Part shown: one piece after another, positions 13,643-50,914 of the stretch
Numbering within the stretch: position 1 is the first letter of the stretch
How the letters are laid out: each line of letters begins with the position of its first letter
NCBI GenBank assembly: GCA_003577165.1
Contig: QEUM01000001.1
Coordinates: forward strand, 1 to 64,000
Reading direction: 5' to 3'
Length of the DNA stretch: 64,000 nucleotides
Origin: Armatimonadota bacterium
Lineage (GTDB): Bacteria; Armatimonadota; Fimbriimonadia; Fimbriimonadales; ATM1
The notes under the pieces: generated by a model
Databases searched by the model: none
What the model saw: the letters and a program-made list of their open reading frames with translations, nothing else
What the model was told of the DNA's origin: nothing
Made by a program: the position numbers and the translations under genes

Positions 13643-16324
13643 CTATTCCTTCATCTCCTTCAGGAGCGCTTCGCACTGGGCGATGCTGCCCTCGATCGCC
13701 TCTTCGTACTGGATTTGTTCCCCTTCTTCCACACACTGTCGATACCGCGCGTCGCCTATGGTCCTCGCTGCTTCCTCCTCCAGTTTCTTGAAGTCCTCAT
13801 AAACTGCGGGGACGAAACCAACTCCCGTCCGGCGGCTGTGGCCGATCGCGACGCCGACAGTCTTCGCAGCCATGGCGATATCTCCGATAGTCATGTAGGC
13901 GAGCGCAAGGTGCGTCAGACCGTAGTGCAGGAGCACACGATCTCCCATCTCGCGCACTAAGAGGAAAGAGTCCCGGAGAGCGCGGAGGCCCTTCGCAACT
14001 TTTCCGAGGCGGAAGCAGACACCGGAGAGGACACAAAAGGAGATGCCCGCACGGCGCTTTGCGCGAAGTCTGACAGCCAGCCGCGCGCTCTCCTCAAGCA
14101 GGCTCTCGGCATCCGTCTGGCTTCCCGCAAAGGCCTCCGCACCTCCCAGGTTCTGCAACAGGCACATCTTGCCGAAGTCATAGCCGATCTCTTCTGCTAT
14201 CGGCATCACCGCCTTCACGGCCTCGCGCACCTCGGCGAGTTTGAATGCGTAAGCCTGCGCCATTGTTCGATTCTGCACCGCGTCCACGTAGATGTACTTT
14301 TCACCCGACTCTTGCGCATAAGCTTCCACTTCATCCACGATGGTAAAGAACTCGTGCCACTTTTCCTCGCGGAAGAGGCGGCGGGAGAGTTCGAGTTTGG
14401 CGATGTTGATGAGTCGTTCGTCTCTGCCCCCGGCCTCGATGTACCGATCTATTGCCGAACGAATCCACTGCGTTGACTCCCTCAATTGGCGGATGTCGCA
14501 ATATTCGCCCAAGGATATGACCATTCGCAATCCGTACTCCGGTTGCTCCTGGATCGCGTAATGGAGGGCGGCGAGCACATCAGAGATCCGTTCGTCACCT
14601 CGTCGCAAGGCGGAATGAGCCGACGAGCTCCATGTTCGCGGCCACTCCGCTTCCCCGGTGAAGAGGAAGTACCTGCAGTGTCTTGCGTATGTCTCTGAGG
14701 CTTCGCCCGTTTCTTCTAGCTTCTCGAGTGCGTACTCTCGGACGGACTCGTATAGGTGAAACCTCGACTCGCCGGAAACTCCCGTCTCCACGCGCATGAG
14801 GCTCTTCGACAACAAAGACTCCATGCGGTCGATGAAGTCGGGTGAGGGCGTTGGCAGGTCACGCGAGCGCTCCTCTCCTGTCGGGTAGAGAGTCTTTCGC
14901 GGCACCGTGTCGTCGAGCACGAATGTGTCGTTTGGGCCGGTCACGGCATAGGCATCCGGCAGAGCGCATCCGCCTACGAAGACCGCGAGGCGGTTGAGCA
15001 ATCTCTTCTCCTCGTCAGTAAGGAGACTGTAACTCCAGTCAATGGTGGCGCGGAGAGTTTTGTGGCGATCTGGCGCGTCCCTTCTACCAATTGACAGCAA
15101 TTCGATTCCCTTATCGAGAAGCCTGATCATCTCCTGTGGGCTGAGCATCTTGACCCGGGCCGCCGCGAGTTCGATCGCAAGAGGGATGCCCTCGAGTTTT
15201 GCGCTTATTTCCGCAACGGCCTCCGCGTTGTCGTCGTCCAACGTGAAGTCTGGTCGCACGGACTTCGCCCGGTCGACGAAGAGGCGCACTGCCGGCATCC
15301 TTTCGAGAGCGGATCGGTCCAGGCCGGCTGCTCCAGCGGCAGGGTGCCCAAGGGGCGGGACGCGATACTCGTGCTCGGCGGCGATGCGCAGGGGCTCTCG
15401 ACTCGTCACGATCACCTTGATCCCCGAGCAACCCTCGAGGAGTTGGGAGACGTACACCGCAGCGTTCATGAGGTGTTCGAAGTTGTCGAGGACAACGAGG
15501 CGCGGATCCGGAGGCAGGTTCGCGAAAAGGGTCTGCATCGCGTCCGTCGAGGGTAGGCCGTGGCCAATCAGGTAGTTGAGGAGGACAACCGGCACGAGGT
15601 CTGTGTCTCGCACTCCTGCAAGGGGGATGTAGGTCACCGGCGCAGCGAACCGTTCTTCGACCCGGCGCGCAACTTCGATTGCGAGCTTCGTCTTGCCGAT
15701 CCCGCCAGGGCCGAGGAGGGATAGCAGACGGACTTCGTCCGACAGGATCAGTCCGCGGCAGGCCTCGACATCCGCCTCTCGGCCAACAAGGGGTGTGCCT
15801 GGGATCGGCAGAGCGGCCCGGGGGCGATGGATTGGCTTCGGAGGCTGCGCGGTCTCGAAGCGCTCGCTCAGGAGGAGGGCGAGGTCGTTGGCGAGAAGGC
15901 CTTCCAACTCCTCTGCCGTTTCGAAAGATCGGTACGACACGCCCGACTCGCGGATTCGGGAGGCAAGCGCCGCGAGCCTCGGCTCCCGGTCCCGCCCCTT
16001 GAAATAGATGAGCCGCGGCTTGCCGTCGGAGAGGTTGAACTCGTCCTCGAGGCCCGAGACCTCCATGTCGGGTGCGATCCACCCGTACGACTTCCCATAG
16101 ATGCCGACGAAGATTTGGCTCTGTTCGAGGTAGGCGCGGTAAACGTCTCTCGGTGGGTGGGGGCGGGCGCCCATCTCGAACATCACGGGAATCAGCCGTA
16201 GGCCCTCGATTGCGCGGCGCGCAGCGGCGCGGTCTTCCCCGAGTTCCTGCAGCGTCGAACTGACGAAGACTCGGACGCGTTGGTCCGGTGTGCGGATCAT
16301 GCTGACGGTCTCGACTGTCTCCAT
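13643..16324 (-). CDS. DUF4062 / NB-ARC / TPR STAND ATPase
   Basis: An 893-aa three-part protein. Residues about 15-110 are a DUF4062 domain (VRVFVSSTLQEL, GIYGKSYGW), a Rossmann-like module found at the N-terminus of signalling NTPases. Residues about 178-470 form an AfsR-like NB-ARC ATPase with LVGRE, P-loop GPGGIGKT (205-212) and Walker B LVVLDNFEHL, then winged-helix-like segments. The C-terminal 350 residues are helical repeats of TPR type. There is no DNA-binding SARP domain. STAND proteins of this layout act as ligand-triggered oligomerising switches, and some defend against phage; the role here is not shown. The upstream extended -10 and its isolation suggest an independent single-gene unit. 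Confidence 0.87.
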   Translation of the reverse strand: METVETVSMIRTPDQRVRVFVSSTLQELGEDRAAARRAIEGLRLIPVMFEMGARPHPPRDVYRAYLEQSQIFVGIYGKSYGWIAPDMEVSGLEDEFNLSDGKPRLIYFKGRDREPRLAALASRIRESGVSYRSFETAEELEGLLANDLALLLSERFETAQPPKPIHRPRAALPIPGTPLVGREADVEACRGLILSDEVRLLSLLGPGGIGKTKLAIEVARRVEERFAAPVTYIPLAGVRDTDLVPVVLLNYLIGHGLPSTDAMQTLFANLPPDPRLVVLDNFEHLMNAAVYVSQLLEGCSGIKVIVTSREPLRIAAEHEYRVPPLGHPAAGAAGLDRSALERMPAVRLFVDRAKSVRPDFTLDDDNAEAVAEISAKLEGIPLAIELAAARVKMLSPQEMIRLLDKGIELLSIGRRDAPDRHKTLRATIDWSYSLLTDEEKRLLNRLAVFVGGCALPDAYAVTGPNDTFVLDDTVPRKTLYPTGEERSRDLPTPSPDFIDRMESLLSKSLMRVETGVSGESRFHLYESVREYALEKLEETGEASETYARHCRYFLFTGEAEWPRTWSSSAHSALRRGDERISDVLAALHYAIQEQPEYGLRMVISLGEYCDIRQLRESTQWIRSAIDRYIEAGGRDERLINIAKLELSRRLFREEKWHEFFTIVDEVEAYAQESGEKYIYVDAVQNRTMAQAYAFKLAEVREAVKAVMPIAEEIGYDFGKMCLLQNLGGAEAFAGSQTDAESLLEESARLAVRLRAKRRAGISFCVLSGVCFRLGKVAKGLRALRDSFLLVREMGDRVLLHYGLTHLALAYMTIGDIAMAAKTVGVAIGHSRRTGVGFVPAVYEDFKKLEEEAARTIGDARYRQCVEEGEQIQYEEAIEGSIAQCEALLKEMKE

Positions 16325-43407: not shown

Positions 43408-45477
43408 TCAGGCTTCTGCCTCCTCGGCTCTCCGCTTCGCGTACTCCTTCTTCAGCGTCTCCTGTTCGTTCATGGGCAATTCCTCGTACCGGGCGAACCT
43501 CTGCCGGAATCGGCCTCGCCCCTTCGTGATAGAGCGAAGGTCCAGGGCGTACTTCATCATGGTGGCCATGGGAACGTCCGCCTGGATGCGCTGCTTGCCC
43601 GGCGCAATCATCTCCATTCCGAGCGGCCTTCCTCGGCGGTTATTCAGATCGCCCATGACATCGCCCGTGAACTCCTCCGGAACGTCGATTTCGACGTAGA
43701 GGATCGGCTCGAGGATCGTCGGCTGCGCTTGCTCTACGGCGTTCCGGAAGGCGAGGGCACCTGCCTGCTTGAAGGCTTGCTCACTGGAGTCCACGTCGTG
43801 GTAACTGCCGTGGAACACGTTGACTTTGATGTCTACGACGGGGAATCCGGCTACCACGCCTTTCGCCATGGCTTCTTGGATGCCCTTGTCGATTGCGGGC
43901 AGGTAGTTTTTCGGTATCGCTCCACCCACGATCGAGTCCACATATTGATAGCCAGCGCCCCTCTCGAGGCTGCTCAGTTCGATATGGCAGTCGCCGTATT
44001 GTCCGCGGCCGCCGGTTTGCTTCTTGTACTTCCCTTGCGCCTTGGCCGAACCCCGCACCGTTTCGCGGTAGGGGATTCTCGCCTCGACCGTTTCGACGTT
44101 GACGCCGAATTTGTCGCGCAGCTTCTCGATGACCACGTCGAGATGGATGTCGCCCATCCCCTCGATGAGGTCTTGCGACGTTTCTGCGTTTCGCACGTGG
44201 TGGAATGTCGGATCTTCGTCGACGATTCTTTGAAGCGCGCCGCCGATTTTGTCTTCATCGGTCTTTGATTTCGCGACGATCGCGAGGCGATAAATCGGCT
44301 CCGGGTACTCGATCGGCGGGTACTTGCGGGGGTTCTTCGGATCGCAGAGGGTGTCGCCCGTGCGCGTCTTTTGAAGTTTCGAGATCGCCGCAATGTCGCC
44401 GGCCGAAACGGCGGGCGCCTGGAGCTGCTCCTTGCCTCGCGGGAAAAACAGCGAACCGATGCGCTCGTTCTCCTCGGTGCTCATGTTTTTGAGGGGAGAG
44501 TCGGCCTTTAGAGCGCCAGTCATTACTCGCACGTAGTTGATGCGTCCGACGAACGGGTCCGCGGTCGTTTTGAAGACAAACGCTGAAAGCGGCGCCGCTT
44601 CGTCGCACTTCACCTCTTCCCCGCCCCAAACCTTCGGCTTTTCCGCCGGACTCGGGATCAATCCGATGAGGTGGTCGAGCAGCATCGTCACTCCGATGCC
44701 TGTCGAAGCGCTGCCCATCAAAACGGGATACACCTTGCCATGGCTGACGCCAACTTCGAGGCCGTGCTCGATCTCCTGTTCTGTGAGCGACTCGCCGTCG
44801 AGGTATTTCATCATCAGGTCGTCGTCGCCTTCGGCGGCCGCGTCCATCATGCCGTCGCGAGCCTTGCTGGCCTCACCTGCGACATCCGCAGGCGGATCTT
44901 CGGACTTGCCATCCTTGACTCCACCGACGTGCGCCTTCCCGTCGATGAGGTCATAGACACCGCGAAAAGAAGTCTGATGCCCGATTGGAACCTGCACCGG
45001 GACCACGCGTTTACCGTAACGTTGGTCGAGCGCTTTGAGGAGCGCGGTGTGATCCGCGTTGTCGCGCTCCATCTTGTTCACGAAGATGAGCCGCGAAAGG
45101 CCGGATTCCTCCGCGACTTCCCAAGCGTTATCGAAGCCGACGTCGATGTCCGCCTGTGCGGGCGTGACGATGACCATCGCTTCGACGATGCGCGAGACAC
45201 CGTAGAGGTCGCCGATGAAATCGGGGTATCCAGGAATGTCAATCAGGTTGATCTTGTGACCCTTCCATTCGATCGGGATGACGGAAGCATTGAGGCTGAT
45301 CTTCCGACGAATCTCCTGCGGGTCGAAATCGGAGTGAGAGGAGCCTTGGTCGACCGACCCCAAGCGATCGGCCCCCCCGGAGGCGTACAGCATCTGCTCC
45401 ACAAGCGTGGTCTTGCCCGCGCCGCCATGTCCGACGATGGCGACGTTTCGAATCTTGTCTGCGGAATACTGCTGCAC
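43408..45477 (-). CDS. EF-G-like GTPase inserted in the spc operon
   Basis: A 689-aa EF-G paralogue with domains I-V. The G1 motif is GHGGAGKTT (residues 16-24), and the position of the [11 protein letters not shown] motif reads DIPGYPDF, so Tyr84 replaces the catalytic His. G4 is NKMERD, a variant of NKxD. Domain IV keeps GGRGQYGD and [20 protein letters not shown]. This is the FusA2/EF-G-2-like subfamily, whose members are thought to be poor or specialised GTPases and not the main translocase; genuine fusA is also present at 55052-57166. It starts with GTG 17 bp after rplE and is followed by rpsN, a position normally without a gene. Confidence 0.92.
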
Positions 45478-48649: not shown

Positions 48650-49204
48650 TTATTGCTCCTCGGACTTTTCCCCTTCGGGCTCGGACTCAATCGTTTCCGC
48701 AGGTTCGGCAGCGGATTCCACGGCAGCGTCCGCTGTTTCAGGTTGTTCCGCCGACTGCTCCTGAGGAGCTTCTTCTGCGGCGGCCTTTGCGGCGCGCTCC
48801 TTCTTGGGCTTCGGCGCCTCGAACTTCGGCCTCGGCTTCGGCTTCGCGTTCGACTTCGGCATCGCGAACGGTTCGCCTTCGGTGAGGACGACGGTAATGT
48901 GGCTCGTCCTCTTCAAAATGCGGTTCGCTCGGCCTTGGGCTCGTGCCCGAATTCGCTTCAGCCTCATCCCTTCGTCCACTTGAATGCGGCTAATGACGAG
49001 CGTCTCGGGGCTCAGCGAGTTGTTCTCCATCGCGTTACCGACCGCGCTTCGAAGAACCTTGTGAAGCATCCTCGCTCCCTTGCTCTTGTGATGCTGCAGT
49101 TTGGCGAGCGCGAGCACTGCGTGGTCGCCGCGCACTTCTCGCGCGACCAGTCGCACTTTGCGTGGCTGCACTCTTAGTCCTTTTCCGACTGCTCTAACTT
49201 CCAT
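48650..49204 (-). CDS. rplV: 50S ribosomal protein L22 with long acidic tail
   Basis: A 184-aa L22. The core ([60 protein letters not shown]) ends near residue 113, the normal length. A tail of about 70 residues then runs through a Lys/Pro-rich stretch into an Ala/Glu-rich acidic end. ATG 49204 is the family start; the gene overlaps the upstream exported-protein gene by 11 bp. L22 lines the exit tunnel, so a long C-terminal tail on the ribosome surface may be accessible to other factors (inference). Confidence 0.95.
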
Positions 49205-49919
49205 TTCGAATTCCCCTATTGGACTCGCTTTGAACTCGCTCCACGACATATTGGATGGCGGTAAGCCTGTCCCCGAAACCGACGTCCACATTCGACAGGG
49301 TGCCTGTCGCCTTAATCGTCTTGGAGTCCGTTGTCCGGACGAGACTGGTTACTGCAAGTTTGCTTGGCTCTGAGCCCTCCGCTGCGAAGACCTCGAGGTT
49401 TGAAACGATGGTGGCGACTCCATCCCGAATCGCTTCCAGCGTTGCCACTCCTTTGACGAGAACCTTGCCCGTCTTCGCATCCTTGTGCGTCACCGGAGAT
49501 GGCGTGCCGACTTTCATTTCTTGCGCTATGGGCGCTGCCAATAGCAGCAAGACCAACCCGCTCAGACGATCACCGGCTTCGCCTTCCGTCTTGGCGGCCA
49601 GCGGGATTCCGAATCGGTTCACGCGAGCCACTTGCTTCATGCCACCCGAGTGCGCGCTGTTGACTTCCTGGCCGTTTAACAAAACCGCGAGAGATTGCAC
49701 TTGCGTCTCAACATCCGCTTCTCCGCCGTCGTACGTCTTGAGAACGGTCTGCCCGACCTGCATCTTCACGCTCGCTTCGCCATTGCTCGAAGTGATGTCC
49801 ATCGCGATCTTGAAGTTCGCCTTTTCGCCCATCTTCCATTGAGGGGCGCAAGTGAACGTTTCCTGCCCTGGCAGGACGGTGCATGCGACGAGTGGGATGG
49901 CGAGCGCGGCTGCGATCAT
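49194..49919 (-). CDS. Exported protein/lipoprotein inserted in S10 operon (second of pair)
   Basis: A 241-aa protein with an N-terminal hydrophobic signal and a lipobox-like PLVAC (Cys13), so it is probably exported and perhaps lipid-anchored. The mature part is predicted to be mostly beta-strand (KMGEKANFKIAMDITSSNGE, GVATLEAIRDGVATIVSNLE). No named domain is certain; the fold recalls DUF6263-like secreted proteins. It resembles the preceding gene's product in length, strand pattern and the C-terminal DSKT-KATGTL versus NSKTGKVVKVEGKM segment, so the two are likely paralogues. It overlaps that gene as ATGA and rplV by 11 bp, so its translation is tied to ribosomal-protein synthesis. Confidence 0.75.
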   Translation of the reverse strand: MIAAALAIPLVACTVLPGQETFTCAPQWKMGEKANFKIAMDITSSNGEASVKMQVGQTVLKTYDGGEADVETQVQSLAVLLNGQEVNSAHSGGMKQVARVNRFGIPLAAKTEGEAGDRLSGLVLLLLAAPIAQEMKVGTPSPVTHKDAKTGKVLVKGVATLEAIRDGVATIVSNLEVFAAEGSEPSKLAVTSLVRTTDSKTIKATGTLSNVDVGFGDRLTAIQYVVERVQSESNRGIRNGS

Positions 49920-50629
49920 TTCTGCCTCACCTTCGCGATGGTGAACGAACCTTCGACTTCGCCCGCGTCGGGATCTTCGGCCGTCATCTTGCCTTCGACT
50001 TTGACGACCTTGCCGGTCTTGCTGTTGACGTAACTCGTGAGTTCGAGGTCTACCGGCGGGTTCTCCTTGTCCTTGAGCGTGAGCGACATCTGGAGTTTCG
50101 CGACGTGCTCTTCGTAGAGGCGGCCCGTTGCGACGAGCGTTCCTTCACCGTCGAGCTTCGCCTCTCCGTCCTTGGCCTCCCACTTCACCTGGAACTCGCC
50201 GCCGAGTTCGAATTCTCCCTTCGGGACAAACCCGCTAATGAGTGCGAGCGACAAGATCTCGTCCTCCTCGGGATTCAATTCGAGCGGCATTCCGTTCTCT
50301 TGGAAGCGGATTGTCTTGGGCTCCGGAAGTTCATCCGTAGGCATGGTCTCCGCGCCGAAAGTCACTTTCTTCTCGGTCACAGCCCATTCCAGGTTCGCAT
50401 GGCCGCCTTCGAGGATTTCCGTGATCTTGAAGTTGTAGGCCCCCGTCTCCGAGAACGCCATGCCTCCGGCGGAGATCTTAAACTCAAACGTGTAAGCCTG
50501 CGATTCGCCTTCCGTGTACACGCGGCCAAGCGTCACCCGCACCTTCGGGGGGGCGTCTTGTCTCTCAGGCGCGTCCGATGCTATCGGCGCGATGCCTGCG
50601 AGAGCCAGTGCTAAGACCGCGGTTTTCAT
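49916..50629 (-). CDS. Exported protein inserted in S10 operon (first of pair)
   Basis: A 237-aa protein with a signal peptide (MKTAVLALALAGIAPIAS) and a mature beta-rich body with many Glu, Lys and Gly residues (YNFKITEILEGGHANLEWAV, FELGGEFQVKWEAKDGEAKL). I do not recognise a named family. The start codon lies directly next to the rpsS stop with no gap, and the stop overlaps the next gene, so it is fully embedded in the S10 operon between rpsS and rplV, where almost all bacteria have no gene. No metal-binding or catalytic motif is evident. It may be an envelope protein whose level follows growth rate (inference). Confidence 0.77.
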   Translation of the reverse strand: MKTAVLALALAGIAPIASDAPERQDAPPKVRVTLGRVYTEGESQAYTFEFKISAGGMAFSETGAYNFKITEILEGGHANLEWAVTEKKVTFGAETMPTDELPEPKTIRFQENGMPLELNPEEDEILSLALISGFVPKGEFELGGEFQVKWEAKDGEAKLDGEGTLVATGRLYEEHVAKLQMSLTLKDKENPPVDLELTSYVNSKTGKVVKVEGKMTAEDPDAGEVEGSFTIAKVRQK

Positions 50630-50914
50630 TTACTTCACCTTGCTCTTGTCTTCCTTGCCGCCGCCGTGGCCGCGGAAAGTTCGAGTTGGGGCGAACTCAC
50701 CCAACTTGTGTCCCACCATGTTTTCCGTCACATAGACCGGCTGGTGCTTTCGTCCGTCGTGTACTGCGAAGGTGTGGCCGATCATCTCCGGGACGATCGT
50801 GCTCCTTCGCGACCATGTGCGAATAATCTGCTTTTCACCGGACGCGTTCAGCCGGAGCACCTTTTTAATGAGGTGGTCGTCGATGAACGGTCCCTTCTTG
50901 ATGCTGCGAGGCAC
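50630..50914 (-). CDS. rpsS: 30S ribosomal protein S19
   Basis: A 94-aa S19 with [40 protein letters not shown] and [18 protein letters not shown]. The start is GTG overlapping the rplB stop by one base (TAGTG). It is followed without a gap by the first exported-protein gene. Confidence 0.97.

Follow-up and report, generated by a model that had tools for sequence, protein, structure and literature searches.

Within a 64,000-nucleotide stretch of an Armatimonadota genome (here called the window), two genes for putatively exported proteins, X1 and X2, were found between rpsS and rplV, inside the S10-type ribosomal-protein operon, which is uninterrupted in almost all bacteria. The insertion is a lineage-wide trait common to one Fimbriimonadales family and inherited vertically. 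The explanation we favor, to which we give about an even chance, is that X1 and X2 are growth-coupled periplasmic carriers of a greasy ligand whose genes the S10 operon acquired in a single event; their exact role is conjecture. A literature search found nothing on secreted-protein genes between rpsS and rplV.

On the minus strand of the window, the genes run in the order fusA, tuf, rpsJ, rplC, rplD, rplW, rplB, rpsS, X1, X2, and rplV, continuing with rpsC, rplP, rpmC, rpsQ, rplN, rplX, rplE, a second fusA, rpsN, rpsH, and onward. The upstream flank, rpsS (S19; 50630-50914, minus strand), matched PF00203 at 50666-50908 (E 1.1e-37), and its stop codon (50632-50630) is followed at the very next base, 50629, by the ATG of X1, leaving no gap. 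X1 (49916-50629, minus strand) encodes 237 aa, a predicted exported, acidic, beta-rich, DUF6263-like protein, and its stop overlaps the start of X2 in a 4-bp ATGA (49916-49919, minus strand), a spacing of -4 that recurred in 6/6 genomes with both genes complete. X2 (49194-49919, minus strand) encodes the 241-aa paralogue of X1, and its stop at 49194 lies beyond the rplV ATG at 49204, where the conserved sequence MEVRAVGK begins, giving an 11-bp overlap. The downstream flank, rplV (L22; 48650-49204, minus strand), matched PF00237 at 48881-49192 (E 5.8e-33). The sequence-only reading had given these coordinates, lengths of ~240 aa, and the ATGA and 11-bp overlaps, all of which were correct on reexamination. 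The second EF-G gene (fusA2; 43408-45477, minus strand) belongs to the spc portion of the cluster, where it lies between rplE and rpsN. It was equally placed in family members with this stretch covered and in the sampled families f3, f4, and f5 of the order, and was not found at the two f2 loci examined.

The window comes from a genome of 2.75 Mb in 23 contigs, belonging to a Fimbriimonadales family of uncultured Armatimonadota represented by 8 genomes in 7 genera. An X1 orthologue occupied the equivalent position between rpsS and rplV in 8/8 of these genomes, and X2 was also present in 7/8. Two Pfam searches covering 113 genomes of the order supplied the distance separating the S19 and L22 domains. 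It was 1,436 to 1,494 bp in six family genomes and only 752 bp in G004, where X1 is the sole inserted gene; in G003, the contig is broken within X2, with X1 adjoining rpsS on one contig and X2 adjoining rplV on the other. At 102 junctions of the order outside the window's family, the distance was 50 to 228 bp, and outside the order it was 57 to 376 bp at 43 junctions among the matches listed. The survey of this junction across Armatimonadota that the sequence-only reading had proposed thus located the insertion family-wide and at none of these 102 and 43 junctions. The doubt raised there, that relatives might lack the insertion and the assembly be at fault, was dispelled: the structure was repeated in 8 independently assembled genomes over 7 genera, and it is therefore neither chance nor misassembly. 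In a tree of five ribosomal proteins, the family formed a clade (support 100/99), with the two sampled f2 members beside it. Together with the presence throughout the family and the absence at the other junctions compared, this makes one insertion on the family stem the simplest explanation, and the arrangement rpsS-X1-X2-rplV provides a common marker for this family.

When X1 and X2 were compared directly, the similarity was marginal (E 0.03). Once the relatives' profiles were used, it became significant: the X1 profile (7 sequences) aligned with the X2 profile (6 sequences) over 201 columns (hhalign E 8.9e-25), and cross-detection by hmmsearch gave E values of 1e-16 to 1e-27, bearing out the earlier suggestion that the two are probably paralogous. 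In a tree of 55 homologues, the eight X1 sequences formed one clade (100/100) nested within a broader one made up of dispersed genes (100/97), and the six X2 sequences grouped with four dispersed f2 genes (99/98), the order within that clade being poorly settled. In-place tandem duplication was ruled out by these separate, supported clades. Since both proteins fall in old clades with dispersed genes, they diverged before the family arose, and on the evidence of profiles and tree they are ancient paralogues rather than a fresh local duplication. X1 and X2 may have entered the operon together or successively. The X1 tree recovered the sister pair G003 and G004, as in the ribosomal-protein tree; beyond this pair, the comparison of the two trees is poorly resolved. 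Dispersed homologues elsewhere were not near ribosomal genes, and their neighborhoods were too mixed for a common context to be found. X-like genes were observed beside queA and a HAD hydrolase gene in two genera (L100:5788-8183 and L102:6401-7123), with three copies in tandem in L100, and in family f3 they adjoined a gene for a LolD-like ABC ATPase (L052:4747-5469 and L103:7875-8594), with LolA absent above the cut-off.

X1 and X2 of the window could be assigned to no Pfam or NCBIfam model, and neither matched DUF6263 (PF19777), the family suggested for comparison, at E 10. Two other matches, to an NCBIfam TATA-box-binding model (E 0.06) and to Pfam DUF7406 (E 0.16), were dismissed as chance, and a PDB sequence search returned no relative of either protein. 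The curated cut-off of the DUF6263 model is a whole-protein score of 26.7 bits. The model was matched by 10/39 homologues (best E 2.2e-10), of which two among the matches listed exceeded the cut-off. X2 of G007 fell below it (E 8e-5, 22.8 bits), and the more distant homologues scored 28.8 and 38.5 bits. Two homologues that pass the cut-off, L024 and L032, were matched by the X1 and X2 profiles at E 1e-14 to 1e-19. Kinship with DUF6263 is therefore transitive, running through intermediates that match a model which the window proteins miss, and X1 and X2 are DUF6263-like remote relatives rather than members. They resemble the family in their similar length and probable export and differ in having no direct match to the model. 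The DUF6263-like family is scattered through Armatimonadota genomes; a literature search found no function or paper for DUF6263.

Among genera, identity was 35 to 44% for X1, which has the conserved motif VATGRLYEEHVAK, and 26 to 31% for the less conserved X2, compared with 74 to 82% for rpsS. Such fast protein evolution fits a reading in which the pair landed by chance and was kept for strong expression, with no functional link and no regulatory meaning in the ribosomal context, and in which it survived since its reading frames and Shine-Dalgarno (SD)-like sites kept rplV translated. The single loss of X2, in G004, points the same way, and X2 is therefore not indispensable. There is also precedent in Gammaproteobacteria and Bacilli, where the rpoBC-str-S10-spc-alpha cluster has been invaded at operon borders by small unrelated gene sets that persisted vertically (PMC8046335). 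Those invasions likewise brought small foreign gene sets into a conserved cluster with vertical inheritance, but they encode metabolic genes and sit between operons or at rplL-rsmC (PMC8046335), whereas X1 and X2 encode putatively secreted proteins inside S10, in overlapping frames. The tight overlaps, moreover, were maintained over 7 genera, and most family genomes had no further copy at E 1e-6 (G005 had two extra and G007 had one), which leaves the function to the operon copies. Capture for expression alone is plausible, but we hold it at somewhat below even chances.

A hydrophobic N-terminal stretch was present in 13/13 sequences (7 X1 and 6 X2), preceded by a positive n-region in 3/7 X1 and 4/6 X2; in the other four X1 and two X2, the signal peptides are therefore weak. 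Most X2 sequences have typical signal peptides, for example MRRISYLVAVALLAALASA and MKSKTVGLFAVVAMVAAFA. X2 of the window (N-terminus at 49881-49919, minus strand) is unlike its orthologues in having no positive n-region and a lipobox-like LVAC at residues 10 to 13, and it may have turned into a lipoprotein. The earlier claim that both proteins are exported thus stood for X1 of the window and for X2 of most relatives and was less clear for the atypical X2 of the window; overall, Sec-type export is well supported by the sequences, although not uniform. Mature X1 is strongly acidic (pI 4.3 to 5.0) and highly charged. The position between two ribosomal-protein genes could instead suggest that X1 and X2 regulate or assist the ribosome, through cytoplasmic feedback or a role in assembly. 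This is highly improbable in view of the hydrophobic, low-confidence N-termini with typical signal peptides in most X2, the acidity of mature X1, and the location of homologues elsewhere, away from ribosomal genes.

Several signals suggest that the exported pair is expressed with its neighbors. The rpsS-X1 spacing in 7 genomes was 0, -4, -4, +3, +3, +1, and -1 nt; the X2-rplV spacing was not conserved (-23 to +12 nt). A candidate SD-like site for X1, AAGGTGA (50635-50641, minus strand), lies within the last rpsS codons and forms a weak anti-SD duplex (-3.9 kcal/mol), and the X1 sites were likewise weak in 6/7 genomes (-3.0 to -4.7 kcal/mol). The SD-like site for X2, AAGGTGAGG (49925-49933, minus strand; -6.8 kcal/mol), is formed by conserved codons specifying KVR near the C-terminus of X1. 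These codons spell AAGGTGAG in G000, G001, G002, and G005 and a weaker site in G006 and G007. The invariant KVR is kept in G004, which has no X2 and where rplV comes next; it may therefore serve the protein as well as the RNA. For rplV, an SD-like AGGGGA (49212-49217, minus strand; -6.4 kcal/mol) lies inside X2. No internal promoter or terminator match was found on the minus strand. In samples of 18 to 54 genes from a crude gene caller, X1 codon usage ranked above the midpoint in 5/5 genomes (percentiles 98, 95, 73, 100, and 56), a range that ribosomal-protein genes share in most of them, and that of X2 was average in 4/5. Coupled translation across spacings of this size is well documented, including within the Escherichia coli S10 operon (PMC12548453). 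Cotranscription of X1 and X2 and their translational coupling with the ribosomal genes are thus implied by the overlaps, the SD-like sites, and the lack of a promoter or terminator match. The sequence-only reading took full coupling to imply that an envelope component is made in step with ribosomes. Such synchronous output may follow from this arrangement, in which the X1-X2 overlap is conserved and the X2-rplV overlap is not.

AlphaFold2 models built from 12 sequences had a pLDDT of 87.2 and pTM of 0.81 for X1 and a pLDDT of 77.1 and pTM of 0.74 for X2. Both predicted folds consist of about ten long antiparallel strands and one helix (residues 124 to 131 in X1), with a hydrophobic N-terminus of low confidence, and they provide an initial proposal for how the uncharacterised DUF6263 group may fold. 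With Foldseek, each model retrieved LmcA, MTP, apoB, 4fvs, and 4z48; lipovitellin and 3fzx were additionally matched by X1 and 3bk5 by X2. The profile and structure comparison suggested earlier therefore gave lipid binders as the best solved matches, at E values of about 1e-4 to 1e-3 and probabilities up to 1.0, but with low TM-scores of 0.2 to 0.54. The predicted half-barrel may be akin to lipid carriers of the LolA/LolB/LppX-LmcA type: it retrieved LmcA, 3bk5, 4fvs, and 3fzx (YmcC-like), along with MTP, apoB, and lipovitellin through their lipid modules. It differs from this type in having no LolA sequence match and low TM-scores. Small porin-like outer membrane beta-barrels would also account for all-beta models, and some porins were among the structural matches, with weaker E and probability; some homologues also matched the Pfam PorA model weakly. 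The lipid-carrier folds ranked higher (probability near 1 versus about 0.2 to 0.8 for porins), and the internal helix and high charge of mature X1 are also at odds with a porin, which we consider very unlikely. On these models, mature X1 and X2 would most likely hold a lipid or some other greasy molecule within a half-open barrel.

Armatimonadota belong to the diderm Terrabacteria. LolA (PF03548) had no match in the 8 family genomes and none above the cut-off in 25 relatives, in keeping with a review according to which outer-membrane assembly in diderm Terrabacteria does not use the Lol pathway (PMC11784454). An X homologue likewise went undetected in many of the order's genomes, and the absence of LolA therefore does not show that X1 and X2 replace it.

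In the growth-coupled carrier explanation, a pair of secreted, periplasmic, beta-rich DUF6263-like proteins would have become lodged at the rpsS-rplV junction of the S10 operon on the stem of the family, leaving its transcription and translation unbroken, and would then have been passed on vertically with one later loss of X2. Transcription on the S10 message, and translation largely by ribosomes coming from the upstream gene, would be expected from the lack of promoter or terminator matches of their own, the contacts and overlaps, and the SD-like sites in the preceding genes; output would then track the rate of growth. In their mature form, X1 and X2 would act like LolA/LolB/LppX-type carriers, serving envelope growth. 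A bolder version, in which the two proteins carry lipids through the periplasm independently of Lol and so supply the outer membrane of a LolA-less Terrabacterial lineage, with synthesis hard-wired to ribosome production, is unlikely. If it were true, the S10 placement would physically link growth rate and envelope building. On the wider question of how cells match envelope growth to ribosome production, putative envelope genes held in a core ribosomal operon throughout a bacterial family offer a testable natural experiment.

Elsewhere in the window, an 893-aa protein is encoded at 13643-16324 (minus strand). Its N-terminus starts with VFVSSTLQELGEDR, and this beginning presumably resembles a DUF4062/STAND-type sensor.
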